Below, piece by piece: positions 6,609 through 22,583 of a stretch of 64,000 bases of DNA. The notes below the pieces were generated by a model that saw only the letters and a program-made list of their open reading frames with translations, did no database searches and was not told the DNA's origin. The first letter of the stretch is position 1, and the number at the start of each line of letters is the position of its first letter. A program made the position numbers and the translations under genes. This DNA comes from Roseibium porphyridii (GTDB lineage Bacteria > Pseudomonadota > Alphaproteobacteria > Rhizobiales > Stappiaceae), in contig NZ_CP120863.1 of NCBI RefSeq assembly GCF_026191725.2, positions 1-64,000 of the forward strand. The letters run 5' to 3'.

Positions 6609-8705
6609 TCATCTGCCCGGCCAGGGCACGGGAGCACCGAAGAGATGACCCTGCGCTGCCTCGATGTTCAACTCCCGCAGCAAGTCTGCTTCTCCATGTG
6701 TTTCGACATGCTTGGCAACAACCTTGATGCCAAGTTCATGAGCTGCACGCACAAGGCCGTTGAGAATTGCAGCTTTTGCGGGTTCCTCGATGACCTGCTG
6801 TGTCAAGCTGGATTCAAGCTTCAACCATTCAACCCGCAGACCCGTCAGGCGAGACAGAACCGGCCAATGGCCGGCAAAATCATCTACGGCCGTCTGGCAC
6901 CCAAGTTCGGCAGCGAACTTGAAAAAGGACTCGATCGTTGCAGGCTCGCGCAGAAAATCCTTTTCGGCAATCTCCAGGCACAACTTGGCCGCAAGCAACG
7001 GGTTGACGGAAAGGCGGTGATACAGGCCATCGCGGAAGTTCGGGTCACGAGCAGATTCAGCTGAAACGTTCATCGTCAGAATTGACCGCTCGGGGCTTCT
7101 CTCCGCTGCATCCAGAACCCGGTCCAGGGTCCAGGCATCCACCTGGGCAATAAACCCCGATCGTTCGGCAGCAGAGATCCAGGCACGAGACGACAGGCCC
7201 CTGGCGCGATCACCCTGCAGCCGCAGCAAAACTTCCTGACCACACACCCGATCGTTCTTCAGGCACATGATCGGCATGGCGAACAGCGTCAGCTCATTGC
7301 CCCGGAAACTGCCGGCATCAGGAATATCCGCCAGTTCGTTTCGCCGCCGCTGACAATCTGTCGATTGTACGCTGTGGATCTGAACGGATTGCCCGCCGCC
7401 CCTCTTGCCGCGCAGGCACGCATGATCTGCAACGCCCAGGAGCGCTGCGGCGTCGATCTCTTCGGCCACAACACTGCTGTCTACAAAGGCAACACCTATG
7501 GAGCCGCCAATCGTGAAGACCCTGTCACCGACTTCCAACCTGATCCTGTCTAAGCCATCCAGGATCCTTTCGGCCACATCGAGGGCAGCACCTTCACAGG
7601 CCGCGGGAACCATCCCGGCAAACTCATCGCCGCCAATGCGTGCAGCGGTCCCGAATTCACCAAGTGTCAGGCTCAGGCAGGCTGCGACCCGCATGAGCAT
7701 TTCGTCACCGGCATCATGGCCGCCAAGGTCATTGACCTTCTTGAATTCGTCCAGATCGATGTAGTAGACGGCCAGCCCTGTCTCATGGTCGGAGCAAAGT
7801 CGCGTCAATTCCCACTTCAACGCCTTGGTGAAAGCGCGGCGGTTTTCCAGTCCAGTCAATGGATCGTGGTAGGCAAGCCTTCTGTTTTCGGCAACATCAT
7901 GGGGACAGTCGATATTGCGCCGGATGACTGCCATTGAGGCACGGTGAAGGACGCCTTTTTCTGGTTGTTGCCTGATAGGCACAATCCGGACTTCACACAT
8001 CTGACGATCCGTGAGATAGCCCGCGGCTTCGAAGCTTCGGTTTTCAGGGATATGGAGCGTTTGTACCAAATCCTCGTTCCCCGCCTGCAACGCCTCGATC
8101 AAAACGCCGATATCATAGTCACTGCCGATCAGCTCAAGCAGCATCACGGCTTTTTCCTCTGCACTTTCCGATCCGTCGAAAACAAGAATTTCGTCGGGAA
8201 AATGCTCCAGCAGGTCGAGACTTACCGACGCCGGTTTGGAAGAAACCTCTGTCCGGGAAACAGTCTCCGGCAGCTGCTTGGCGTCCTGGCCATTTTCTTC
8301 CATGTCGAATTGAACAAGGACTGCCTGGTTCGCACCTGTCAGTGACACCACGGAGGTGCAGATCATATGGTGACAGAATTCGCTTCCCGACTTCAGTGTC
8401 ATTGTGCCGCTGGCCTGCGAAGGGACCCCACTGAACGCCGTCGCCAAGACGGTCTTGCACCGTTTCCAGCTTGGCCTCGACAACAATGTTTTCAGCCCGG
8501 CGGGCATGAAATCAAGTTTCAAACGGGAGCAGGCATCTCTCAGATGCGTGTTGCAGTGAAGTATGCTTCCGTCCTGCGCAACATAAGCAGCAGCAAATGG
8601 CAGGACTTCCAGCAGGGACGTGTGAAATCCCGCAAGACTATTATTATCACTTGTGTGACCGGACCTCTCCAGCCGGTCTTCTAAAAACCGATGGCTGACT
8701 TGCAC
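6609..8705 (-). CDS. GGDEF-EAL protein with degenerate EAL domain
   Basis: This is a cyclic di-GMP signalling protein of 698 residues. The N-terminal half looks like PAS-type sensor sequence (about 1-270). A GGDEF domain with an intact RIGGDEFAG motif near residue 356 supports diguanylate cyclase activity; no RxxD inhibitory site is seen five residues upstream. The C-terminal EAL domain is recognisable but decayed: EAL reads EVL (near 490), the DDFGTG loop reads DDFAGHW, and the conserved AEGVE near 664 reads AKHVE, losing a glutamate needed for catalysis in characterised phosphodiesterases. I infer an active cyclase with an inactive or regulatory EAL. Translation probably starts at GTG 8705, because no good ATG lies nearby. 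Confidence 0.88.
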   Translation of the reverse strand: MQVSHRFLEDRLERSGHTSDNNSLAGFHTSLLEVLPFAAAYVAQDGSILHCNTHLRDACSRLKLDFMPAGLKTLLSRPSWKRCKTVLATAFSGVPSQASGTMTLKSGSEFCHHMICTSVVSLTGANQAVLVQFDMEENGQDAKQLPETVSRTEVSSKPASVSLDLLEHFPDEILVFDGSESAEEKAVMLLELIGSDYDIGVLIEALQAGNEDLVQTLHIPENRSFEAAGYLTDRQMCEVRIVPIRQQPEKGVLHRASMAVIRRNIDCPHDVAENRRLAYHDPLTGLENRRAFTKALKWELTRLCSDHETGLAVYYIDLDEFKKVNDLGGHDAGDEMLMRVAACLSLTLGEFGTAARIGGDEFAGMVPAACEGAALDVAERILDGLDRIRLEVGDRVFTIGGSIGVAFVDSSVVAEEIDAAALLGVADHACLRGKRGGGQSVQIHSVQSTDCQRRRNELADIPDAGSFRGNELTLFAMPIMCLKNDRVCGQEVLLRLQGDRARGLSSRAWISAAERSGFIAQVDAWTLDRVLDAAERSPERSILTMNVSAESARDPNFRDGLYHRLSVNPLLAAKLCLEIAEKDFLREPATIESFFKFAAELGCQTAVDDFAGHWPVLSRLTGLRVEWLKLESSLTQQVIEEPAKAAILNGLVRAAHELGIKVVAKHVETHGEADLLRELNIEAAQGHLFGAPVPWPGR

Positions 8706-9046
8706 CAGACCGCCCTTTCAAAAACTCGGATCGAAAGGCGCTACCACACTACTTACGCGCCAAAATCATGCACAAAGTACTATCACAGTTCTTTTGATTA
8801 TTTCTAAAACTGAAAACTTCCCACAACTCTTAGAATTTTTATATTTAACCGGAAATTAACTTTCTACATTTAATATTAATTAAAATTTTAGCAAATTTTT
8901 CTTCAATTTTCACTTTATTGTTGAATTCATGCCATATTTTTTTCACATCCCCGACCTATTCGTGCCGCGACGGAATGTTAGGCGTGCCCATCACAGTTTC
9001 GTCAATTTAAAGCCAAGAGCTGGCCAAGAACCGACAGGATACAACC
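8706..9046. other. AT-rich intergenic promoter region
   Basis: This 341-base spacer separates two divergent genes. The stretch 8800-8950 is strikingly AT-rich and must contain the promoters of the GGDEF gene and of the RlpA-like gene. No ORF or strong hairpin was found in it. Confidence 0.5.
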
Positions 9047-9463
9047 ATGCATACACGCAGCGCTCTTAAGAGCCTGGTGCGGGCAGGTCTTTGCACAACT
9101 ATGCTCATAGCGGCAGGATCCGCCGCCTTTGCGTCCAATGACAACTTCACACAATGCGGCAAGGCCTCATGGTATAAATTGGGCGGTACGACAGCCAGCG
9201 GAGAGCCTGCCAACCCAAACGGCCTTACGGCGGCACATCGCACCTTGCCTTTTGGGACCATGGTTGAGGTGACCAATCTCTCCAACGGCAAATCGGTTAC
9301 TGTCCGGATCAACGACCGGGGGCCTTATTCGAAAGGCCGTGTGATTGATGTGACCTATGCGGCCGCCAAAAAGCTCGGCTTCATCCGCAAGGGAATAACA
9401 AAGGTGCATGTCTCGGACGGACCGAAGCAAGTCGCCAAGAATACTAAGCAGTTTTGCCGATAA
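9047..9463 (+). CDS. RlpA-like septal ring protein (DPBB fold)
   Basis: This small exported protein (138 residues) has a double-psi beta-barrel domain of the RlpA family, whose members act on denuded peptidoglycan glycans at septa. It has a signal peptide of about 28 residues ending SAAFA. The diagnostic segments then follow: [28 protein letters not shown] and [18 protein letters not shown]. There is no C-terminal SPOR domain, so this is the minimal alphaproteobacterial form. An AGGA ribosome site sits 7 bases before the ATG. Two hairpins follow the stop codon. Confidence 0.88.
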
Positions 9464-9500
9464 TTCGCGCTCAATCGATCGGTTTCAGCAATCTTGTCAT

Positions 9501-9550
9501 ACGGAAACAGTCAGCTTTTTCCGTAGTAAGTCTCTGTATTTGCAGAGACT
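9501..9550 (+). terminator. Two tandem hairpins after the RlpA-like gene
   Basis: ACGGAAA (9501-9507) pairs with TTTCCGT (9518-9524), and AGTCTCTG (9529-9536) pairs with CAGAGACT (9543-9550). Both stems are perfect. Only short A/T stretches follow, so termination strength is uncertain. The rest of the 9464-9832 spacer holds no ORF that I believe. Confidence 0.5.
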
Positions 9551-9711
9551 ATTTAATGACACGATACTTTCACAACTGACTCAGTATGAATAACGATCAG
9601 TCGCATTACAGTGAATCAAAAAATAAAATATTTTACGGTAATGACAATCGATAAAGATGTCGCTAGAGTTGCCGCCGTGGTCGATGGGGCCACGTGCACA
9701 GTAACTTTATT

Positions 9712-9741
9712 CGCGCAGTCTTAGGGCTGCGCGTTTTTTTT
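9712..9741 (+). terminator. Strong orphan intrinsic terminator
   Basis: CGCGCAG (9712-9718) pairs with CTGCGCG (9727-9733) and is followed by eight T residues. It lies about 250 bases after the RlpA-like stop and faces the convergent photolyase. It either ends a long RlpA 3' tail or terminates a small RNA transcribed from about 9560 onward. Confidence 0.75.
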
Positions 9742-9832
9742 GTTTTACATCTCAACCATTTGAAATGTCTGCCGGTCACCTCCCGTTTGCGCTCAAAATC
9801 AACGCATCTGCAACCTGCATATGCGGGGAAGA

Positions 9833-11389
9833 TCAAAGCTCCTCCCGCTGGTCGAGCCGGTTCAAAATGGCTTCGGCAGTGGACCGGTATTGGTCCTGTT
9901 TTTCAGGAGCCATTTTCCTCCAGGTTGCGTAGGGCTGGCCAAGTCGCGGGTTGTTTCGAAGGTGCGGTTCGTTCCTGTCAAGAAAATGCCAATAGAGTGC
10001 GTTGAAAGGACAGGCGCCCTCGCCCGTCTTCCGACTGACCTCGTAAGAACAGGATCTGCAGTAATCCGACATCTTGTTGATGTAATTGCCACTCGAGATA
10101 TAAGGCTTGGAGGCCAGCAGCCCGCCGTCAGCAAACTGGCTCATGCCGATGGTATTCGGTAGTTCGACCCATTCATAAGCATCTGCATAGACCATCAGAT
10201 ACCATTCGTGAACTTCGCTGGGATCAACACCGGCAAGCAACGCGAAGTTTCCTGTCACCATCAGCCGCTGTATGTGATGGGCGTAGGCTTCCTCGATCGT
10301 TTGCGTGACGGCTTCCGCGACACACTTCATCCGCGTTTTGCCCGTCCAATAGAAGTCCGGCAAAGGTCGGCGCGCTTCCAACGCGTTCTCGGATGCATAA
10401 GCCGGCATTTTCAACCAATAGATGCCCCGGACATATTCGCGCCAGCCCAGGATCTGTCGAATGAACCCCTCCGCAGCATTCAAGGGCGCCTTGCCTTCCC
10501 GGTAGGCCGTCTCGACCTTCCGGCAAAGCGTTAGCGCATCAAGAAGCCCGGCATTGAGATAGGCTGAGATGACTGCGTGATACAGAAATTTCTCGCCCTC
10601 CAACATTGCATCCTGATAAGTGCCGAAATTTTCGAGCGACGCCTCAAGAAAGCCTTCGAACGCGGCCTCGGCGTCCTGCTTCGTCACCGCGAACCAGAAC
10701 GGCTCGAGCGATCCGAAATGATCGGCAAACCGGTTCTCGACAAGGTCAAGAACCTCTCTTGTGACTTTGTCCGGCCTAACCCTTTTGGGCGACGGCATGA
10801 AAAGGTCCGATCTTGCCGGTTTGCGGTTCTCCTTATCGAAATTCCATTTGCCCCCCACGGGTTTTTCGCCATCCATCAGCAGTCCGGTTTTGCGGCGCAT
10901 GTCCTGATAAAAGGTTTCCATGCGCAATTGTTTTCGCCCCGTCGCCCAGGCGCGAAACTCCGCAGGCGAACACATGAAACGCTGATCTGAAAGGATTTCC
11001 ACCGGCAATCCGAGGTCTTCCTGCCAACTTCGCATACCCGCCAGAACTCGCCATTCACCGGGCTCGGTCAGCAGAATTCCCTCCGGGTTCAGTCGAGCAA
11101 CCGCCCTTTTGACTTCTCCCTTGAAACTGCCGGTGTTGCCAGACGCATCGAGCCGGACATAGTCGACCGACCAGCCTGCAATGCGCAGCTCTTGCACAAA
11201 ATGGCGCATGGCGGAGAACAGGAATGCGATCTTCTTCTTGTGATGGCGGACATACGTTGCCTCTTCCATGACCTCGACCATCAGCACACGGTCCCGTTTC
11301 TGGTCAGCGTGTCTCAGACTGGACATATCGGGCGACAGCTGATCTCCAAGGATCAACACAAGCTTTCGGCAATCAGACGTTTCGTTCAT
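9833..11389 (-). CDS. FeS-BCP type photolyase (PhrB/cryptochrome-like)
   Basis: The 518-residue protein belongs to the iron-sulfur bacterial cryptochrome/photolyase family, formerly called deoxyribodipyrimidine photolyase-related. Members repair (6-4) photoproducts using FAD and light. It opens with LVLILGDQLSPDMSSL and carries the helical FAD domain with QILGWREYVRGIYW. Four cysteines suited to a 4Fe-4S cluster are visible: one in RMKCVAEAV, two in YCRSCSYEV and one in GACPFNALYW. The family length is about 500, so it looks complete. It converges with the RlpA-like gene. Confidence 0.92.
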   Translation of the reverse strand: MNETSDCRKLVLILGDQLSPDMSSLRHADQKRDRVLMVEVMEEATYVRHHKKKIAFLFSAMRHFVQELRIAGWSVDYVRLDASGNTGSFKGEVKRAVARLNPEGILLTEPGEWRVLAGMRSWQEDLGLPVEILSDQRFMCSPAEFRAWATGRKQLRMETFYQDMRRKTGLLMDGEKPVGGKWNFDKENRKPARSDLFMPSPKRVRPDKVTREVLDLVENRFADHFGSLEPFWFAVTKQDAEAAFEGFLEASLENFGTYQDAMLEGEKFLYHAVISAYLNAGLLDALTLCRKVETAYREGKAPLNAAEGFIRQILGWREYVRGIYWLKMPAYASENALEARRPLPDFYWTGKTRMKCVAEAVTQTIEEAYAHHIQRLMVTGNFALLAGVDPSEVHEWYLMVYADAYEWVELPNTIGMSQFADGGLLASKPYISSGNYINKMSDYCRSCSYEVSRKTGEGACPFNALYWHFLDRNEPHLRNNPRLGQPYATWRKMAPEKQDQYRSTAEAILNRLDQREEL

Positions 11390-11660
11390 CGGTACCTGCG
11401 ACGATTAAGGTCGGTACTCAACAATACGCAGCCAAGGCGCAGCTCTATCACTTCAGGGGTGTTTTTGTTGCGAACTTCGCTCCAGACCGACTTATCGCGA
11501 TCTGCGAAGCGCGACTGTGGCCGCGAAAATGTCTCGGCCCGAGCGCTTTGTGAAACGCCAGAATTCCTGTCCAAAGTAACAGAAAGCCATTGCCCCGGAT
11601 CTCCGGATCTAGTATCAGACGCGTCTATCCGCCGTGCCATTTTCAGTGCATGGCCGAGCA

Positions 11661-11737
<77 letters not shown>

Positions 11738-11806
11738 TCAAAACTCAAGTCTTCACAATGACTTGATCTTGTGGCACTCCAGCCGAAAAGCTTCCGAAAA
11801 TCGATC

Positions 11807-11824
11807 TGTCACACTGGTGTCACA
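11807..11824. repeat. 18-bp palindrome, left copy
   Basis: TGTCACACTGGTGTCACA is an imperfect palindrome (arms TGTnACAC and GTGTnACA around TG). It lies 16 bases before the integrase ATG. An identical copy sits at 22289-22306 near the other end of the element. It is likely a binding site for the integrase, for an excision factor or for the XRE regulator. Confidence 0.65.
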
Positions 11825-11839
11825 GTGACGGAGAGAACG

Positions 11840-12820
11840 ATGGCGACCATTCGTAAAAGAGGTCGATCCTGGCAAGCCCAGGTAAGGCGGCAAGGACATC
11901 CGCCAATCACGAAATCCTTCCAGCAAAAAGCCGACGCTGAGCTTTGGGCAAAGCGGCTTGAGGTCGATCTCAAACGAGGCGACGCGGGGATTATCGTACA
12001 GAAACAAACTTCAACACCCCTATCCGACCTGCTTTTTCGTTATCAGGAGGAGATCACTCCCCGGAAGCGAGGCGCAACGGCGGAGCGATACCGGCTGCGG
12101 ATACTCTTGCGTCACGAGATCGCAAAGATCCCTGTCAGCAAGCTCTCATCCTCGGCTGTGGCCCGATACAGGGACGAGCGCCTTCAGGTCGTCAGTTCTT
12201 CAAGCGTAAGGCGGGAGCTGGTGATCCTACGGCATTGCCTGGAGATCGCCCGTAAGGAATGGGAAGCACCGCTCAAGGAAAACCCGGTCCACAACATCCA
12301 GGTGCCCACTGACGGCAAGGCTCGCGAGCGAAGGCTCACCACAGAGGAACTGAAATTGCTCCTTAAAGCCGTTGACGAGTGTCGGAACCCCTATGTCAAA
12401 CCGGTCATACAGTTCGCCTTGGAGACCGGTATGAGGCGGGGTGAGATCCTCGGACAGGTGTGGGAAAACATCAATCTGAAAGCTCGAACCGCTGTTATCC
12501 ACCAGACCAAGAACGGACACGCACGAACCGTACCCTTGTCCGGGGCTGCAGTGAATATTCTGAAGGCATTGCCGGATCGTGATGGAACTGTTTTTCCGAT
12601 ATCGTCCAACGCGCTTCGGAAATCCTGGGAACGGGTGAAGGAAAGGGCTCAACTCCAAGACTTGAGGTTCCACGATCTCCGCCATGAGGCCGTGAGCCGG
12701 TTCTTTGAGTTGGGCTTGAACGTCCCCGAAGTCGCCCTCATCAGCGGACACAGAGACCCGAGGATGTTGTTCCGGTACACGCACCCGAAGCCGACAGAGA
12801 TTGCAAAAAAGCTCGCTTAG
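11840..12820 (+). CDS. Tyrosine recombinase (integrase)
   Basis: This is the site-specific recombinase of the element, 326 residues. After an N-terminal arm/SAM-like domain, the catalytic domain shows the expected residues: Arg in ETGMRRGEILG, His-x-x-Arg in HDLRHEA, His in ISGHRDPRML and the nucleophile Tyr in FRYTHPK. The ATG at 11840, preceded by GGAGAG, is preferred over an upstream in-frame start at 11771. It begins 102 bases after the tRNA 3' end and reads inward, as tRNA-targeting integrases usually do. The 18-bp palindrome overlaps its promoter region. Confidence 0.93.
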   Translation: MATIRKRGRSWQAQVRRQGHPPITKSFQQKADAELWAKRLEVDLKRGDAGIIVQKQTSTPLSDLLFRYQEEITPRKRGATAERYRLRILLRHEIAKIPVSKLSSSAVARYRDERLQVVSSSSVRRELVILRHCLEIARKEWEAPLKENPVHNIQVPTDGKARERRLTTEELKLLLKAVDECRNPYVKPVIQFALETGMRRGEILGQVWENINLKARTAVIHQTKNGHARTVPLSGAAVNILKALPDRDGTVFPISSNALRKSWERVKERAQLQDLRFHDLRHEAVSRFFELGLNVPEVALISGHRDPRMLFRYTHPKPTEIAKKLA

Positions 12821-12904: not shown

Positions 12905-13216
12905 ATGCAGGATTTCAAGATAGCAGGAAATGAAGGACGTCTTTCGAGGGAAGAAGCCAAACAGAACCGCAGGGCAGCGGGTGCTTACATCAAGGAGCTC
13001 CGGTTAAAGCGTGGCCTGACACAAAAGGAACTCTCCAAACTCCTGGGGCTGGAGTACTACACAATGATCTCAGGAGTGGAGAACGGGAGCAATCGCATAC
13101 CACCAGAGGCATTGGCGGATTGGGCAAAAGCTCTAAGGGTTAAGCCAAGAGACTTCGCAAAACGGCTTCTTTCGCACTATGAGCCACGCTACTTTGAAGC
13201 GCTGTTCGGGAAGTGA
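12905..13216 (+). CDS. XRE-family HTH regulator
   Basis: A 103-residue protein with one Cro/C1-type helix-turn-helix (about residues 27-85: IKELRLKRGLTQKELSKLLG, then a recognition-helix region ending in GVENGSNRIPP). It sits 84 bases after the integrase in the same orientation, a usual place for an element regulator controlling integration or excision. No toxin-like partner lies beside it. The start is uncertain because no clear ribosome site precedes the ATG. Confidence 0.82.
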   Translation: MQDFKIAGNEGRLSREEAKQNRRAAGAYIKELRLKRGLTQKELSKLLGLEYYTMISGVENGSNRIPPEALADWAKALRVKPRDFAKRLLSHYEPRYFEALFGK

Positions 13217-13432: not shown

Positions 13433-16400
13433 TTAGATTTGGTGTCGGCGCTTCGGTTCGAGTGTTACCTTTTCTAAGGCGTCAAACCACTCTTGGCCAA
13501 ACGGGTGCCTGACCATACTTTGTGCAGAGATCAGGACTTCAGCTGCAACACGCAGACTAGGCGGATTTTCTTTGTCGAGTGCATCAGCAATTTGCCCAGC
13601 ATGTTTTGCGGGGTCAGTAAGTAGAAACCTCTGCTTATTGATGACACGTGACCAACCAGCCAATACCAATTTTGCGACTGGCACTTCGAGCGCGGGGCGG
13701 CACAGAGACCTGGCAACGTGAGAAACTAGAAACAAGTCACGATAGAAACGGCGCTGCGGACTCTCTTCAACGTCCATGGGCGCAACGCCTATACCATTTG
13801 CCACCATTACGTTGAAGGAAGCTCCTGAACCAACTGCATACAACTGCGAGGCCGACTTGAAGATGGCTTCAAGTTTTGTCTGAGCACCAAACAGGTTGTC
13901 AATTTCAGTCGCAAGTACATTCAATATCTGTTCCTCAGGAGGGTCCATGAACAAACTTGCTGCCAACACATCAAGGAGGAGGGATTCAACTGCTTCTGAA
14001 GTTTGAGGATCCTCAAGTAGAATGGATGGATTCGATAAGCTGAGTTCCTCGACATCAAGGCGAAGTGAAGCATGGTCTTCACGCCTTACACCCTTTAACT
14101 GTCTCGAAACCGCAATCGCCTTTGTTCCCGTAATGAGCACCTCTTTGAACGCAAATGCTTTCAGCTCGGAATTGCAACGGTTAGCCAGAATGCCCGCCTC
14201 AATATGAGGCAACACAGAACCATTCTGTTTCTCCATTGATCTTGCATCAATGCCCAACTCACTCCCAATTGCTGCCTCAACAAATGCTAGGATTCGCCAG
14301 TTATTAGACAACGGCGTCAAGGAAGGGTTGAGCAACTCTGCAGAACTGTCTTCGAGTTGCGATGCAAGACCAAATGAGAAAGGTGGCTCGTAGTCCTCGT
14401 TCACGCCGAGAACCTCACTCGACATTAGACCACCAATTGCTCGCGCAAACTGATGTGAACGCTCTGCTTGACGGGAGTGAGAAGACTCGAACTGCTCCAG
14501 CGATTCTAGGCATTTGGCGGCTGTTAGTACTGCATTTTCTTTTTCTCCGGCTCGCCATTGCACCAGGGCAATTTCTACTAAAACTCCAACAGCTAATGGA
14601 GCACAGCCATCGGCATCAAGAAATGCTGTGTACGCCTTCTCAAGCATCCGAATCGCATCTCGGAAACGACCAGCCTTTGCTGAAGTCACCCCCGCTTCCC
14701 GGAGAACAATTCCTTTGTCGAGACTTGTCTCAAAATCAAAATTGTCTTCTACGGTCACCAGCAACTCGGTTGCCTCGTGATGTCGATCCAGGTGCGATAG
14801 CACTTTCGCTTTTTGACGAATAAGGTTAGGCAGCTCACCAACGTCACAAATTGCAGATGCTATGACATCCAAGGATTGCTTTGTGTCTCTTAGACCCTCG
14901 TCTATAATTACTGATAGGGCGCAGCAGATTTCCGAAATGAGATCTTGGGAGTTCCATTTAGTCACTAATTCTTTGATTTCCTCATAGACCTTCAATGCAG
15001 TGCGCATGTCGCGACCCGCTAATTGATCCTTGGACCAACCAGAATTAATAAACACGGTCGCGCCTCCATAGATCGCAAAAATTGCTGCGACAAAGCGGTC
15101 TCGTAAAGTTGGTTCCAGTTGGTCAAGCGCTTGGATTACTTCAAGCAAGTCTTCTGACTGACAAATGTGCTGAATCACCGTTGTGAAAAGAAAGTCTGCG
15201 AGATCCATCTCGCCACTAAACTGAGCCGGGAGATACTCTTTCGGGTCTATGATTTCGCCACCCGATAGTTTTTCTGCGACCGTATAAGCTGTTCGCATTT
15301 GAAGTGCTATTTCTAGGCGTAACTTGGGACTGATTGGCGCCGTGGCGGACATCAACATTCGAACGCCAGCTACAGAGAGCACCAAGGTCCCAATTTCACC
15401 GGCATTGCTGAACTCCCGTAGGAACTGCTGAGCGGCTTTTGCTGCTATTTTTGGTTCATCAACTGCATCAGCTACGTCGAATTGAAGACTGCGTAGCATA
15501 AGAGCAACCGCTGGATTGCTTGGGAAAAGAGATGTCTCCGTAGATAGCAGCGCTATAGGTGCTAATATTGGTGCCGCCGCTCGAAATTTATCCCTATCCA
15601 TCGTCTGCATGGTTTCGCAGATTTTCAATAGAATTTGTTCAAACTCACCATGCAACGCATTCCAAAAACACAACGGTAGTGTACGCTCGTCGAGCGTTTT
15701 CTTTTCAAGCCAATGATAAGCAGCTAGCTGTTGCCAACCCTTCTTCTCTTCTTGCATTACATCGTTCGAGATGTCTGCAATTAATGGGGACACCCTCAAA
15801 TCCTGATGAGGGAGGATTTCGAGCCAAGCTCCCTTCAACACCGCAACAGTATCACCAGCGTTGGATAGAGCTGGTGGAGCTTGCGCAAGCTTGAGAAGTA
15901 GTGGTTCGTCCAGCCGATCAAAAACAGACGCTGCGCGACGTAATAGTTTTCCAGCCTCTAGTGAACGCGCATCATCAAGTTCTCGCAAATTGGCAAGCAG
16001 ATCGCGACGAGCCTCTTCACGAGTAAGTTTAACAGCTTCACTGGGTGTACCGATATCTTCGACAAGCGCCGTCCTCGGCCAATTGCGAGCTCTTAGGCTT
16101 GCGAGTTTCGCAACGACCAACACCGGATGACCACCATGTGTGGTTATATGCAGCATGGCGGACCAAGGTTGAATCATTTCACTAGGGGGTGCTGGTGCTC
16201 TTTGAACAAGTTCGGCAATGTCGCCCTGGGTAAAATATGGAACTTGAACAATTGCATTCGCATCTGAACCAGCGTCTGCCAGGCGGGCAGGACTGGGCGC
16301 TTGATGTGAAGTTACAATTACACGAATGCCAAGAGGAGCAAGTGTTTGAACCAGAGCAACTAGGCGTTTTGTCAACACATTCGCGGCTTCGCCAACAAAG

Positions 16401-17464
16401 TCGTCGATAATAATTCCGTCTAAATTCTCGCCAGAAATCGTTCTGATCAGCTCACGCCATGCTGCAATCGCCGATGTCTCATCTTTCCGAACCGGCCACA
16501 GATCGATCACGGTCCATCGACCACCTGTACGATTTGCTAAAAGCTTCGCCAAGGTTGACTTGCCTACGCCATGCGCTCCATGAAGCCATACAAGCGATTG
16601 CCCCCGCACGTCATCAAGCACTGATTCAACAGTTCCTAGTCTTTGCGCACCCGGCTGTGTGGTTTCAAGATCGGAGATTAGGATGTCTTGAGACGATGCA
16701 ACATCTTGAATGGGTTGTGCAAATTGATCTGCAAGGAAGGCCCCCGCCGCAACTTCTTCAAGGATTTCTTGTACGTCTATCTTCGTAAGCTGTCGGTCAG
16801 TAGCATTGGGTCGGGAAGCTACCTCAAAGGAATGCTCCAATAACAGTTTGTAGGCCTGGTTGCTAAGGGTTACTGGCCAGCCCTTTTGTTGCAAAATGGG
16901 ACGCAGCTGATCTTTAATCTGCAAAGACAACATGTCAGCAGCTTCAAGCTCCAACTGCCAACTCACGCGTCGAAGAAGTTTCTCACGCAGCTCCGCGTCT
17001 GATGGGTTTTCAGTTAGCCACTCGCCGAGCGGATGTTCGGAAAAAAGATCAAGAAGTGCTTCTCGAATTGGCGCAGTGTCTGCGTCAATCGCTGCTGACC
17101 GCCAATAGACTAGACCAGACTGGCCCTCAGGGAACGAAAAACGGCGCTCAACTGAGGCGCCACCACGTGCCATAAACACGAGGCGTCGCGGCTGAGAGTC
17201 TTGCAAACTCATTTGCCAAAAACGCTCCAGGCACTCTCTTACGAGTTTCGATTGCAGACTATATGACGGCGGCCCAGCTGCTGCCTGGGAGTTCTTGACT
17301 TGATGGTCTGTCACCTGCTCCGGAGCAACGACCGTAAAATCTTCCGACACCTCAAGCAGGAGTTTCTCATTCTCTCCAAGCGATAGCAGTGACGCAACAC
17401 TGTGCAGCAACTGATATCGAAATCCAGCAATAACGTCTGCAGCACTGGCTATGGGATTGGGCAT
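13433..17464 (-). CDS. Cap4-nuclease/STAND NTPase/TPR protein (Avs-like defence candidate)
   Basis: A 1343-residue multidomain protein. Residues 1-230 resemble the DUF4297/Cap4 dsDNA endonuclease: GFRYQ at 14-18, then E38, D42 and QVK at 55-57, a PD-(D/E)xK-type arrangement. A P-loop NTPase follows with Walker A GAHGVGKSTLAK near 295 and Walker B DGIIIDDFVG near 350, then RVIVTSH, as in STAND proteins. The rest (about 450-1343) is alpha-helical, with TPR-like repeats around 870-1010. Nuclease-STAND-repeat order is that of Avs anti-phage NLR-like sensors, where the repeats detect a phage protein and the nuclease then degrades DNA. It is transcribed against the integrase. Function is inferred; the phage trigger is unknown. 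Confidence 0.78.
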   Translation of the reverse strand: MPNPIASAADVIAGFRYQLLHSVASLLSLGENEKLLLEVSEDFTVVAPEQVTDHQVKNSQAAAGPPSYSLQSKLVRECLERFWQMSLQDSQPRRLVFMARGGASVERRFSFPEGQSGLVYWRSAAIDADTAPIREALLDLFSEHPLGEWLTENPSDAELREKLLRRVSWQLELEAADMLSLQIKDQLRPILQQKGWPVTLSNQAYKLLLEHSFEVASRPNATDRQLTKIDVQEILEEVAAGAFLADQFAQPIQDVASSQDILISDLETTQPGAQRLGTVESVLDDVRGQSLVWLHGAHGVGKSTLAKLLANRTGGRWTVIDLWPVRKDETSAIAAWRELIRTISGENLDGIIIDDFVGEAANVLTKRLVALVQTLAPLGIRVIVTSHQAPSPARLADAGSDANAIVQVPYFTQGDIAELVQRAPAPPSEMIQPWSAMLHITTHGGHPVLVVAKLASLRARNWPRTALVEDIGTPSEAVKLTREEARRDLLANLRELDDARSLEAGKLLRRAASVFDRLDEPLLLKLAQAPPALSNAGDTVAVLKGAWLEILPHQDLRVSPLIADISNDVMQEEKKGWQQLAAYHWLEKKTLDERTLPLCFWNALHGEFEQILLKICETMQTMDRDKFRAAAPILAPIALLSTETSLFPSNPAVALMLRSLQFDVADAVDEPKIAAKAAQQFLREFSNAGEIGTLVLSVAGVRMLMSATAPISPKLRLEIALQMRTAYTVAEKLSGGEIIDPKEYLPAQFSGEMDLADFLFTTVIQHICQSEDLLEVIQALDQLEPTLRDRFVAAIFAIYGGATVFINSGWSKDQLAGRDMRTALKVYEEIKELVTKWNSQDLISEICCALSVIIDEGLRDTKQSLDVIASAICDVGELPNLIRQKAKVLSHLDRHHEATELLVTVEDNFDFETSLDKGIVLREAGVTSAKAGRFRDAIRMLEKAYTAFLDADGCAPLAVGVLVEIALVQWRAGEKENAVLTAAKCLESLEQFESSHSRQAERSHQFARAIGGLMSSEVLGVNEDYEPPFSFGLASQLEDSSAELLNPSLTPLSNNWRILAFVEAAIGSELGIDARSMEKQNGSVLPHIEAGILANRCNSELKAFAFKEVLITGTKAIAVSRQLKGVRREDHASLRLDVEELSLSNPSILLEDPQTSEAVESLLLDVLAASLFMDPPEEQILNVLATEIDNLFGAQTKLEAIFKSASQLYAVGSGASFNVMVANGIGVAPMDVEESPQRRFYRDLFLVSHVARSLCRPALEVPVAKLVLAGWSRVINKQRFLLTDPAKHAGQIADALDKENPPSLRVAAEVLISAQSMVRHPFGQEWFDALEKVTLEPKRRHQI

Positions 17465-17877
17465 AAAGATTTTGCTTCAAACTACAAGAGCGAATCAAGC
17501 GCCTAGTGGAAACAACCTAGATCGATCATGCATCACGCCTACAACCTAAGCAATCACGAGAAACTCAACTAACACTGACGCAGACTTCAAACTGTGAATT
17601 TTGGCTACTGATCAAGTTACAACATTCTGCATAGAGTTTTCTAGTAACGCTTTCATTTGTATTTTAGGATTGATCGCTAAAGCTCAGAAACGCGCAATCA
17701 AATCACAAGTTCCAAGCTGTTTGCGGAGAAAAATCAGAGAATATGCTGAACCTATATATCACAATATTCGGTTGACTTTACTCTTATCTTTACGGCAAGA
17801 ATTTCATACGCATAGGTTGATGGACTGTGCGCATTTTTAGAGACAATTGCTTTCAATGGGTTGTTAAGGATACTTCA
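17465..17877. other. Low-GC divergent intergenic region
   Basis: This 413-base spacer lies between the start of the STAND gene and the start of the membrane protein gene. It is AT-rich and should hold two divergent promoters. A 79-codon open frame at 17601-17840 starts with TTG and lacks a ribosome site, so I do not call it. Confidence 0.45.
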
Positions 17878-18456
17878 ATGCCAAACGGGCTAGATGACTT
17901 CCGAAAAGCTATAGAAGATTTTCGAAGCACTTTTCTACTTGCAATTGGCGGTACATCTATTGCGCCTATCGTTGCACATTTCGCTGGAATTGCCCCAGTT
18001 TGGCCGAACGGGGTTGGCATTATTACTTCTGTAGCCACCTTAGTTGTAATTATTTTTGCTTTTCAATTTTCAAAAAATTCTTCAAAGAAGATCGTAAACC
18101 GAAGAATGTTGCTTAGCCTGTGGTCCTGTATTTTTTGCTCTATTGTCTATTTTGGCCTTTTTTCTTTTTTTGTATATGAAATACCGGTCACTAATCAAAA
18201 AACTTACTTGGGTTGCGGATGGAGTGAACGCGCAAAATTAATAGTATCTGAGTTTGGTGCTAGTGTAGACAACAGTTGTCCAGGTCAGTTTCACGAAATC
18301 TTGGCTTCAGCGAGCTATGACCCTTTCGCTGTGTGGACTGTTTCTAGCATAAACGCGATAGCTCTTGTTATTCTGGTGTTTTGGATTGCATTTTTCGCAT
18401 CTCTGTCAAATATAGTTGCCTTATTTGTCGTGCATCAAAGGATGCAGCAAAAATGA
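17878..18456 (+). CDS. Unknown four-helix membrane protein
   Basis: I do not recognise this 192-residue protein. It has four hydrophobic segments: about residues 17-40, 45-63 (ending VVIIFAFQF), 78-103 (WSCIFCSIVYFGLFSFFVY) and 155-185. The loop between helices 3 and 4 (about 104-150) carries two cysteines and is probably exported. The ATG at 17878 is chosen because AAGGA lies 8 bases upstream. The next gene overlaps by 4 bases (ATGA), so the two are translationally coupled. Base composition is far more AT-rich than the host genes, which indicates recent transfer. Its place next to a nuclease-STAND gene suggests defence cargo, but nothing in the sequence shows the mechanism. Confidence 0.7.
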   Translation: MPNGLDDFRKAIEDFRSTFLLAIGGTSIAPIVAHFAGIAPVWPNGVGIITSVATLVVIIFAFQFSKNSSKKIVNRRMLLSLWSCIFCSIVYFGLFSFFVYEIPVTNQKTYLGCGWSERAKLIVSEFGASVDNSCPGQFHEILASASYDPFAVWTVSSINAIALVILVFWIAFFASLSNIVALFVVHQRMQQK

Positions 18457-19415
18457 AGTTGTACCTTTATTTGGGCTTGGCCATTATTTTTGTACCATTA
18501 TTTGGCATGTCTGCATTTTCAAAAAACGAAATTGACTATGAACAATGGCTCAAAGACAACCCTCAGCTTGAAGAGCAATTGTTCAAAAGTGCTGTGGCAA
18601 AAAACCTAAAATCTAGACAATTCGTTGAATGGGTTAATGAAAGTCGTCACAAAATTTTTCCAGAAAAGTACAATCCATCCCTTGAAATAAACGACCAATG
18701 GACTGAGGATGGCTACATAACTTGGAATGAAGATTATGGAAGCCAAGCATACTTAAAAGAAATATTACGTTCAGATCACCTCTACTATTTTCCGCTTGGC
18801 GACTGTAGCTACGTGATACCTCCGCTGTTCATTTTGGACGAGGAAAGTTCAGAGGCTGGTTACTATCCAGATGACTTAAGCGTATTGTCAAATGTAAAAT
18901 CTTTACTTGAATTTTTCGGAATTAATAACAGCTTAACGGCCAGTACTAAATTCTTTCTGGACTATCACGACCCCAGAGTTGAGAAATTTGGCACAGTTGT
19001 CGACATCGACCGAATAAGGGACATCAACTCCTTATTTGAACATCATTTTCTTTCTGGCCAAATCGCTTCTCCAGTTGTCATCGATCTTATCCAGGGCGAT
19101 TGCGCTGACTTACCTGTAGGTTACGTCGAGGCCAAAGTGAAAATTAAACAGACAAGCGATTATAACCAGCTCGAATTTCTATATTTCATTCCAGATTTTT
19201 ATTATTTTCTCTGCAAAAAAACAGGTAAGTCCGCTTGGGACACCAAAGACTGCAGGTTTTGGATTCCCATAAAAGAAGAAAGTTACTTAACTGGGCACGT
19301 TCGATACATTGCAGTTTTTGAGAATGGAAAAACAAAAAGAGGTGGCATCAATATTAACAATGGAATACTGAAGGAATTGGAAGGAAGGAAGGTGATTGAC
19401 CTTACATTTAATTAG
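18453..19415 (+). CDS. Unknown exported protein coupled to the membrane protein
   Basis: An unrecognised 320-residue protein. The N terminus MKLYLYLGLAIIFVPLFGMS is a signal peptide, probably cleaved near SAFS-KNE. The remainder is soluble, acidic and rich in aromatic residues (Tyr, Phe, Trp), with cysteines in GDCSYVIPP, GDCADLP, FLCKKTG and DCRFWIP that could form periplasmic disulfides. It starts at ATG 18453, overlapping the upstream stop. Like its partner it has very low GC. The pair may form an envelope complex; effector, sensor or toxin roles are all possible. No catalytic motif was seen. Confidence 0.68.
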   Translation: MKLYLYLGLAIIFVPLFGMSAFSKNEIDYEQWLKDNPQLEEQLFKSAVAKNLKSRQFVEWVNESRHKIFPEKYNPSLEINDQWTEDGYITWNEDYGSQAYLKEILRSDHLYYFPLGDCSYVIPPLFILDEESSEAGYYPDDLSVLSNVKSLLEFFGINNSLTASTKFFLDYHDPRVEKFGTVVDIDRIRDINSLFEHHFLSGQIASPVVIDLIQGDCADLPVGYVEAKVKIKQTSDYNQLEFLYFIPDFYYFLCKKTGKSAWDTKDCRFWIPIKEESYLTGHVRYIAVFENGKTKRGGININNGILKELEGRKVIDLTFN

Positions 19416-20203: not shown

Positions 20204-20287
20204 CTTTGCCTGATCTCCAAATCACCAACCTCAGGCAACACAGCAATTCCCCGAACCTATTGAAGAGATAAGAGAATGGAGGACCCC

Positions 20288-22150
20288 ATGCTCGCAACGA
20301 ACACATGTGCCTGGAACCCGTTGGGGGGGAAGATATGTATAAACAGTCTTTATCAAGATTTCCCCCCCTCCCACAGTCTCGCCGATCATGCATTCAATCT
20401 TCTGACGGAGGAGTTCAAGGCCAGAGGACACGCCCCATCAAACCAGATGCTTGTTGCGATACGGGACGTCCTGTTGACCCTGGAAGCGATGGCGGAAGAG
20501 AGGTGTCCGGACCGCGTGTTCCTGTCCTCCCTCGACCCAGGTGTCGGCAAGACCAGCGCAGTGGTCAGCTTCATTAAGGCCCTGCGCTTGTCTCCCAGGC
20601 CCGATCACCAGGACGCGGCAATCCTCATTTGCCTTGGTCGCCTGGAGCAGATCGAGGAAATGATCCGTGCGACTGGGTTGACCAAGGATGAGTTCGCGGT
20701 CCTCACGTCAGACGAAGAGTTGAATGCTCTGGGAAGTGACAACTGGCAGAAGGCCCGTGTCCTCTTCACCACGCAAAGCAGGATCCAGCTCAGCTTACAG
20801 GGGCGTCGCTTCGAGCAAGTGTCAAAGTTTCAGTATCAAGGTCTTCGACGTCAGGTCGTGATCTGGGATGAGACCATGCTCCCCGCCACCCCGATAACCG
20901 TGAACCAGTTAGAGATCTCGTCGCTGCTCCAGCCGATCAGTTCCATGTCTCCGCTATTGCTGGACCTACTTGAACAAACTTATGACAAGCTGAGGTCATG
21001 TCAGGACAAGGGCACGATAACGATACCGAACCTCCCTCAAGAAAGCGGTTTGGACTGGTCTGACATCAATCGACTGTCAGAGGGTCTGCCTGAAGCAAAC
21101 AGGCGCACCCTCCGCTCGCTGTGGCAGATGTCCGGACAAACCGTCAGCGTGAGACGAGATGGCATAAATCGCAACACAGTCTTGCACTTCCAGATGTCTC
21201 TTCCGGAGGACTTTGCACCAGTGCTTGTCCTGGATGCCTCTGGTCGCGTTAGGGCAACCTATAAACTCTGGGAAGTGCACAGGGGAGGACTAACCCGGTT
21301 GAGATCAGCATCGAAGGACTATAGCAAACTCCGGATTCATCATTGGCCAGTTGGGGGCGGAAAATCCAGCTTAACCCGGGACTTCGACCGGCATGTTCAG
21401 GGTGTGGCCAAGACCAAAAACAATAAACAGTGGGAGCGATGGCTTGTCGTGCACCATAAGTCCTTTCAGGGCGGCCGGGACTTCATCTCTGCAGTCAAAG
21501 ACCAGCTTGAGAGGCCCGAACTCTGCAGCTTTCTCAATTGGGGATCTCATGATGCGACGAACGACTATGCGGAAATATCCAATGTAATCCTGGCAGGAAC
21601 GCTTTTCTATCCGCCGTCTGTGATCGAGGCGGTTGGAAGAGCGGCGGGTGATCTTCCGGCCTGGAAGACTCCATTCTCCGAAAAGGACTTCATCAGTGTA
21701 CAGAGAGGCGAAACAGCCCATGTTCTGTTACAGGCTGCATGTCGGGGTTCAGTCAGAAGTTCTGTTGGATCCTCATGCGGGGTTTGCGACCTCTATGTGA
21801 TCGGAAGCAAGCGGTCAGGGTTCCCCGAAGTGCTACTGGAGACTTTCCCAGGTTGCCAGCTGCAGAAATGGAGACCCATTCGGCGACGGGCGAAAGGTCG
21901 CGTAGCACTGGCGTTGGACTATCTGGAAAACAGGTTCGAAGAAGACCTAAGAACCTTTGTACCTTTCCGCGATGTCCAAGAAGCGATCAGCTGCTCTGAT
22001 AAGTCAACCTTCAGAAAGGACATCAGGAAGCATCCTGACTTCGGGGCAGGTTTGGATGAGCTGCAGTTGGTCGAGGGAATGGACGGCAGATACGGAGGGT
22101 TCGTGTCCGTGTCATACGAAGCGCTCTTCGGGGCACCCAGAGACGCGTGA
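20288..22150 (+). CDS. Element-encoded P-loop NTPase (helicase-like)
   Basis: A 620-residue protein with Walker A SSLDPGVGKTSAV near residue 85 and a Walker B-like VVIWDETML near 196, the arrangement of a helicase or translocase. After the NTPase half comes a segment containing PVGGGKSSL near 355 and a basic stretch (RPIRRRAKGR) near 540. The last 80 residues look like a winged-helix DNA-binding tail. GGAGG at 20278-20282 sits 5 bases before ATG 20288, so I prefer that start to ATG 20276. Its place at the distal end of a small integrated element suggests a replication protein. The family is not recognised with confidence. Confidence 0.6.
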   Translation: MLATNTCAWNPLGGKICINSLYQDFPPSHSLADHAFNLLTEEFKARGHAPSNQMLVAIRDVLLTLEAMAEERCPDRVFLSSLDPGVGKTSAVVSFIKALRLSPRPDHQDAAILICLGRLEQIEEMIRATGLTKDEFAVLTSDEELNALGSDNWQKARVLFTTQSRIQLSLQGRRFEQVSKFQYQGLRRQVVIWDETMLPATPITVNQLEISSLLQPISSMSPLLLDLLEQTYDKLRSCQDKGTITIPNLPQESGLDWSDINRLSEGLPEANRRTLRSLWQMSGQTVSVRRDGINRNTVLHFQMSLPEDFAPVLVLDASGRVRATYKLWEVHRGGLTRLRSASKDYSKLRIHHWPVGGGKSSLTRDFDRHVQGVAKTKNNKQWERWLVVHHKSFQGGRDFISAVKDQLERPELCSFLNWGSHDATNDYAEISNVILAGTLFYPPSVIEAVGRAAGDLPAWKTPFSEKDFISVQRGETAHVLLQAACRGSVRSSVGSSCGVCDLYVIGSKRSGFPEVLLETFPGCQLQKWRPIRRRAKGRVALALDYLENRFEEDLRTFVPFRDVQEAISCSDKSTFRKDIRKHPDFGAGLDELQLVEGMDGRYGGFVSVSYEALFGAPRDA

Positions 22151-22506
22151 ATTTTGCCCCAGCGATGTAAAGGAGGCCCTGGCTGAGACAGGCGGCCAGT
22201 GTCTCCCCCCCTCCCCCACTGGCAAATTGAGAGGACAGGGGAGGGGTCTCCAGCCAGTTCTGTGAAGGAGACTGCTAGACACCCAACTTGTCACACTGGT
22301 GTCACAACGGACCCGATTTTTCGAGATTATGGAGCCCTGTTCGTCAGTGGTCAGGTCCACTGAATATATCACCATGGCGCCTTGACCTCGACTCACGAAG
22401 CTCCTATCTTGTTCGAGTAACAGATTGAATTTGCGTTGCTTTTTCCGCCTGTTCAGCCAACTACAGTGCCCCTCTATCCGCCGGTTCCTTGCGACCGGCC
22501 TGACAC
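22151..22506. other. Right-end non-coding region of the element
   Basis: This 356-base stretch has no credible gene. It holds a C-rich tract (22204-22219) inside a CCAGTG/CACTGG inverted repeat, the second copy of the 18-bp palindrome, and the approach to the right tRNA-Arg copy. It probably forms the right attachment arm. Confidence 0.5.
22289..22306. repeat. 18-bp palindrome, right copy
   Basis: Identical to 11807-11824 and in the same orientation. It lies 200 bases before the right tRNA-Arg gene. Confidence 0.65.

Positions 22507-22583
<77 letters not shown>

Follow-up and report, generated by a model that had tools for sequence, protein, structure and literature searches.

A predicted Avs-like immune receptor with a Cap4-type nuclease in a tRNA-Arg island of Roseibium porphyridii

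Avs3 (AVAST type 3) unites a Cap4-type nuclease, a STAND NTPase and a helical C-terminal sensor in one protein. Passages of PMC11291478 state for SeAvs3 that it binds its trigger, oligomerises, pairs its nuclease domains and destroys DNA. The same passages describe a DUF4297 nuclease that works with a separate HerA ATPase; mutation of its PD-(D/E)xK motif significantly reduced nuclease activity, and nuclease-site mutants abolished defence and also the DNA-less 'phantom' cells. The STAND-TPR protein 6mfv and MalT domain III (1hz4) are also among the closest known systems, as are Apaf-1, CED-4 and the plant NLR resistosomes, which are eukaryotic and carry another effector and another sensor. In Lamassu, the nuclease LmuA (9hr5, 9nxx) works with the SMC-type LmuB.

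Here we analyse a 1343-residue protein encoded in the first 64,000 nucleotides of contig NZ_CP120863.1 of R. porphyridii (the window). We judge it likely, at a probability of about 0.75, to be a single-gene NLR-like immune receptor of the Avs kind that travels as cargo of a tRNA-Arg-integrated island. This reading draws on a nuclease active site, STAND motifs, a TPR arm, swapped effectors and mobility, as seen in sequence and fold prediction.

Domains and motifs of the 1343-residue protein

The original prediction had placed a 1343-residue protein at 13433..17464. The open reading frame is there, and we can add that it lies on the minus strand, with an ATG at 17464 and a stop codon that ends at 13433; the plus strand over 13433-17464 is not open. 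No obvious ribosome-binding site was found by eye upstream of the ATG at 17464. The gene is present in a single copy in the host genome. The gene and its parts are as follows.

13433..17464, minus strand: Avs-like protein, 1343 aa (nuclease, STAND NTPase, TPR sensor), from the open reading frame; full-length relatives mostly 1310-1370 aa
16730..17464, minus strand: residues 1-245, predicted Cap4/DUF4297 PD-(D/E)xK nuclease effector
17294..17353, minus strand: active-site stretch E38, D42, Q55-V56-K57, from conservation and register with 8xav D40/Q53/K55
15755..16678, minus strand: residues 263-570 (start and end approximate), STAND NTPase (NBD-HD-WHD)
16556..16579, minus strand: Walker A, residues 296-303; K302 in 97/97
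16400..16417, minus strand: Walker B, residues 350-355; D354 in 93/97, D355 in 94/97
16124..16132, minus strand: G445-H446-P447 of the STAND helical domain; G445 and P447 in 97/97
14225..15754, minus strand: residues 571-1080, helical adaptor and TPR superhelix (putative sensor), from TPR matches and a model of pLDDT 91.4
13436..14224, minus strand: residues 1081-1343, least conserved large segment by information content, putative ligand-specific end

Conservation was counted over 97 full-length rows, the query included, which remained after identical sequences were merged among 101 proteins selected as full length by a near-complete nuclease match together with more than 900 core positions. 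The longer frame of 1343 aa is the form common to relatives. The database protein entry for this gene (P0001) starts at M85 and therefore lacks E38, D42 and QVK, so that a survey of predicted proteins could overlook the nuclease.

The expected features of a Cap4/DUF4297-like start, GFRYQ at residues 14-18, E38, D42 and QVK at 55-57, are all present. Over the 97 rows E38 and D42 are invariant (97/97 each), Q55 is kept in 96/97 and K57 in 93/97, with three R and one T in its place. The five rows that deviate at Q55 or K57 are P0035 (E-x-K), L018, L026 and L029 (Q-x-R) and P0034 (Q-x-T). The PADLOC LmuA profile matches residues 7-263 of the protein (2.8e-7) and 22 of the 26 members of our alignment of relatives (alignment A1; best 2.5e-10), and the PADLOC DUF4297 profile matches 8/26. 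With Pfam PF14130 (Cap4_nuclease), the protein's own domain scores 16.5 bits (E 0.01) against a gathering cut-off of 26.2; at E 0.1 the model picks up 17 of 27 N-terminal domains, the best at 2.3e-6. When a profile of 27 nuclease-domain rows was searched against the PDB, DUF4297 chains came out on top (8xav 1.5e-10, 8ziq 4.9e-8, 9c1m 1.2e-6), and, counted along the profile alignment, D42, Q55 and K57 line up with D40, Q53 and K55 of 8xav, the residues mutated in the study that deposited that structure, as passages of PMC11291478 report. Structure comparison likewise gives the N-terminal domain the Cap4/DUF4297 family fold. The domain is a predicted Cap4/DUF4297 nuclease with its predicted active-site residues in place. 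It shares fold and active site with the nuclease of HerA-DUF4297 (8xav, 8ziq, 9c1m), but is fused to a STAND domain.

Walker motifs had been anticipated near residues 295 and 350, and G296..G301-K302-S303 and D354-D355 occur there; over the 97 rows K302 is invariant, and D354 and D355 are kept in nearly all. Together with G445-H446-P447, which we take to be the GxP-type motif of the STAND helical domain, and with a predicted NBD-HD-WHD fold, they identify the central part as a STAND NTPase by sequence and fold prediction. Pfam and NCBIfam scans found no DNA-binding domain in the protein. The long helical C-terminal half is borne out by a model of residues 480-1343 with a mean pLDDT of 91.4, for which structural (VIA) matches cover mainly model residues 156-573, short of protein residues 1053-1343. 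Mean information over residues 1081-1343 is 1.41 bits, as compared with 2.13 for the nuclease and 2.08 for NBD and HD.

Relation to Avs proteins and effector exchange

The protein has the architecture of the Avs anti-phage proteins, as originally proposed, with effector, STAND domain and C-terminal repeat sensor in one chain. In a Foldseek comparison of residues 1-640 the best solved structure was Avs3 (SeAvs3, 8dgc), at a low whole-chain TM-score of 0.28; in the VIA Z ranking Avs3 stood 16th, after single-domain matches. The original prediction called the protein shorter than the Avs proteins that have been studied well. With its 1343 residues it is indeed shorter than Avs3, which has about 2030-2090 (2028 in the 8dgc chain, 2083 positions in the Avs3a model), but not shorter than Avs5, whose model has 763 positions.

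By sequence, the protein stands apart from the named Avs families. No Avs model matched it in an NCBIfam scan at E 1, and no Avs-named PADLOC model matched any of the 26 members of alignment A1 at E 0.1. The Avs3a model (NF041816, cut-off 2800 bits) found no match in the host genome at E 0.001; as a control it recovered L137 in another genome at 3080 bits, above the cut-off, and weaker relatives in four more genomes, making 5/148 genomes overall. The host-genome search with the Avs5 model (NF041814, cut-off 1000 bits) was empty, and its controls likewise gave no match. Sequence-only searches of the PDB contained no Avs chain in two full listings and among the best 60 of 181, of 136 and of 152 matches. 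Against L137 and the weaker L138, hhalign related the NTPase weakly, at a probability of 61% (E 8.3e-5), and the nuclease barely, at E 0.04; for the sensor, compared with these two Avs3a-type proteins only, it showed no relation (E 0.77, probability 0.1%). In the arrangement of its parts and in its probable mode of action the protein is thus an Avs, while by sequence it belongs to no named Avs family. Given a sensor with no detectable relation to those of the two Avs3a-type proteins, we read it as an Avs-type build that probably carries its own sensor.

On analogy with Avs3, the protein most likely destroys DNA on meeting a protein of an invader. The receptor would be inactive at rest until the invader's protein binds the TPR/C-terminal arm, upon which the STAND domains would oligomerise; within the oligomer, nuclease domains would come together as active dimers and cut DNA. 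Such cutting would stop the infection, probably at the expense of the cell. With an arm in which no sequence relation to the Avs3a arm was detected, the receptor may have another trigger protein or may recognise its trigger in another way.

A search with residues 580-1343 brought up two relatives, P0081 (Psychrobacter) and P0082, that align with the query only behind the nuclease: P0081 from residue 227 onward (25% identity, 892 columns, E 8e-57) and P0082 from residue 255 onward (25% identity, 866 columns, E 2e-41). They score 1195 and 1060 bits, respectively, with a core profile to whose construction both contributed. The N-terminus of P0082 is PNP_UDP_1 (9.9e-20). That of P0081 has no Pfam match and is matched by PADLOC to an LmuA model (1e-16) and to a DRT protein (1.2e-9); together with TAAH and GxSGSG, which we assume to be the motif of a trypsin-like protease, these matches let it read as such a protease. 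Both effector types have precedent. Passages of PMC12799240 report that trypsin-like proteases occur as fusions with components of Avs, Lamassu, Hachiman and DRT systems, and that protease-bearing systems have an upstream MBL-fold pro-nuclease; effectors of the trypsin and PNPase types are listed for further bacterial conflict systems in passages of PMC7159879. The two relatives show, at the level of predicted domains, the swapping of effectors on one STAND-TPR core that is expected of antiviral STAND receptors.

In the pooled set of relatives, 130 sequences carry nuclease and core, and 14 more have a core match above 40 bits and no nuclease match, a ratio biased by the mostly nuclease-containing queries with which the pool was gathered. 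Among these 14, P0081 and P0082 alone are full length; the other 12 are split frames, short entries or fragments. A further 12 pooled entries have the nuclease without the core, some of them on other bodies: L055 (1014 aa, STAND/TPR), L056 (1002 aa), L060 (2140 aa, no Pfam match at 0.01), L061 (1458 aa, TPR and PIN-TPR-GreABC), L066 (open frame of 1557) and L067 (1571 aa, NACHT-like). It is possible, at somewhat less than even odds, that the protein represents an unnamed modular family whose sequences set it apart from the named Avs types. In such a family a conserved STAND-TPR core would be combined with nuclease, protease or nucleoside-phosphorylase-type effectors, and the variable C-terminal end would sense some invader protein that is not among the known Avs triggers.

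The tRNA-Arg island and the distribution of relatives

The gene had been predicted to be cargo of a tRNA-integrated element, and its surroundings agree: identical 77-nt tRNA-Arg(ccg) genes lie on either side, with an integrase between them.

11661..11737, plus strand: tRNA-Arg(ccg), chromosomal copy and left edge of the island, where the 98.5% identity of G1354 over 8000-11738 ends
11771..12820, plus strand: island tyrosine integrase (PF00589 3.1e-29; phrog_1 9.2e-62)
12905..13216, plus strand: island HTH (Cro/CI-type) regulator (HTH_3 2.3e-11)
22507..22583, plus strand: second, identical tRNA-Arg(ccg), right edge of the island

The island of 10.8 kb holds the Avs-like gene, the integrase, the HTH regulator and four genes of unassigned function. 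PADLOC gave no match worth the name for the proteins of these four genes, and so the neighbours add no defence signal. In G1354, a genome of the same species, the sequence is collinear with window positions 8000-11738, as far as the tRNA, and shows no match to the window in the 15 kb examined beyond it; nor does G1354 match the 1343-residue protein, with a query that does detect the host's own genome. An integrase beside a tRNA gene, a 77-nt direct repeat and absence of the element from a relative are what is expected of a tRNA-integrated island.

Within the genus, this tRNA-Arg site resembles a hotspot. Of 21 genomes searched, several have a partial copy of the tRNA on the contig of the complete one, some 13-63 kb away from it. 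The host genome itself has a third piece, of 48-50 nt, at C1:127414, so the island may be followed by a second, larger element. In nine neighbour loci of the genus, which extend 1.5 kb either side, the left flank stands beside the same tRNA over at least 1 kb in six and as shorter pieces in two; one shares the tRNA alone.

Relatives are widespread and sporadic. In a collection of 5.8 billion proteins, with about 8,000 candidates scored in each search, a whole-chain word search found at least 36 proteins (the own entry included), the 26-row alignment A1 at least 73, and residues 580-1343 alone at least 19. A single-protein scan of the genome_contigs collection found no relatives; alignment A1 was needed to obtain 62 loci there, 11 of them matched solely within the first 333 residues. 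By record titles, 40 of the 62 are from Alphaproteobacteria, 9 from Gamma- and 5 from Betaproteobacteria, 4 from Planctomycetes and relatives, and 4 from others. In the host order 6/297 genomes match, the own genome included, two of the six solely in part. Searches with the core profile in the class and the phylum, with two candidates scored per genome, listed 86/385 and 112/398 genomes, but almost all of these hits are short, fall on P-loops or TPRs and stay below 35 bits; a genuine-looking core occurs only in the own genome, in G642 (3.4e-204) and as fragments in G987, G238 and G410. In the class of G720, 1/369 genomes matched, with a protein that has a nuclease N-terminus, and the class search around G691 gave the identical match and tally. 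Carriage by phages was rejected, because no relative turned up in 50,697 phage records or, with alignment A1, in viral contigs. Plasmid records gave 13 matches, all below 60% identity, and five of these span 80% or more of the protein.

Around 68 loci of relatives there is no conserved partner gene. Besides the protein itself, the families in three or more of these loci, named from our reading of the sequences, are LysR-like regulators (7), ABC ATPases (5), integrases (4) and short-chain dehydrogenases (4), and, in three each, a mobilisation protein, two CoiA-like proteins and a resolvase. A tyrosine recombinase occurs in 12/68 loci, the own locus included, and tRNA genes in 6 of the 29 loci that were scanned for them. 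The recombinase lies within 80 nt of the tRNA in L019 and L030, and its longest frame overlaps the tRNA in L015 and L049.

Alternative functions and implications

The open-licence papers that we searched hold no recognised description of this protein's family, and other functions have to be weighed. The receptor could defend against competing mobile elements, such as plasmids or islands at the same tRNA, by sensing a conserved protein of theirs and not of phages. The hotspot-like tRNA-Arg site, with its partial tRNAs and the fragment at C1:127414, and the plasmid-borne relatives fit this idea; Avs3, the closest solved architecture, nevertheless senses a phage protein according to passages of PMC11291478, and we consider the idea unlikely. 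Domestication by the host as a lysis or death switch for the release of gene-transfer agents (GTAs) or prophages seems improbable. It has a model in Caulobacter LypABC, an NLR-like system that, as parts of PMC13236601 describe, was co-opted for GTA release within the Alphaproteobacteria, the class of most of the 62 loci. A domesticated function should be conserved, however, and the sporadic occurrence in the order, the absence from G1354 and the island setting count against it.

A further alternative is a Lamassu variant in which the LmuA nuclease is fused to a sensor of its own. The scan of the four other island proteins gave no LmuB-type match, no partner is conserved around the 68 loci and the body is STAND-TPR, all of which makes such a variant quite improbable. 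A transcription regulator of the MalT kind would share the STAND-TPR body, but it would not account for an N-terminal nuclease whose catalytic residues are kept in nearly all relatives, and the lack of a DNA-binding domain in our scans also speaks against it; we regard this as extremely improbable.

If the reading as an Avs-kind receptor is correct, the protein would add to the NLR-like bacterial immune receptors a family that falls mostly in the Alphaproteobacteria among the matches and lies outside the NCBIfam Avs models, with an exchange of effectors visible among its relatives. Its sensor should not be treated as the Avs3a sensor, so identifying its trigger would be a direct test of how widely bacterial NLR-like proteins are spread over the proteins of invaders.

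Nuclease domain of the Avs-like protein and its relatives

Comparison of the database entry for the Avs-like gene (P0001) with the open reading frame showed that the predicted protein is 1259 aa long and begins at M85. The omitted stretch, 17213-17464 on the minus strand, leaves the entry without the nuclease active-site residues E38, D42 and QVK. The same Cap4-type nuclease is found on different bodies in other genomes, being joined to a TPR/PIN-TPR-GreABC body in a protein of 1458 aa (L061:8075-12451) and to a 2140-aa body at L060:9908-16330, for which a Pfam search at E 0.01 returned no matches.

Other genes of the island

Further open reading frames lie on the plus strand of the island between the two tRNA-Arg copies:

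17827-19415 (+), two overlapping ORFs: 209 aa, reading as a multi-transmembrane protein, and 344 aa, with a signal-peptide-like start
20276-22150 (+), one ORF: 624 aa, containing a GxGKT stretch that resembles a P-loop

Searches of four libraries gave no useful match for the ORF pair, which is a possible second cargo system. A family search was likewise without a useful match for the 624-aa protein, possibly a replication or helicase protein of the island.

Island ends and the adjoining region

An exact 18-nt near-palindromic repeat occurs close to either end of the island, at 11807-11824, not far from where the integrase frame begins, and at 22289-22306; these copies could be recombinase arm sites or repressor sites. 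The element may also carry its own tRNA upstream region, because the 38 nt preceding the second tRNA copy (22469-22506) are 97% identical to the DNA preceding the same tRNA in L131, a locus from another genome within the genus. An additional tRNA-Arg fragment of 48-50 nt lies approximately 105 kb downstream (G000:C1:127414-127463), which suggests that a second, larger element, taking in 22507-64000, adjoins the island.
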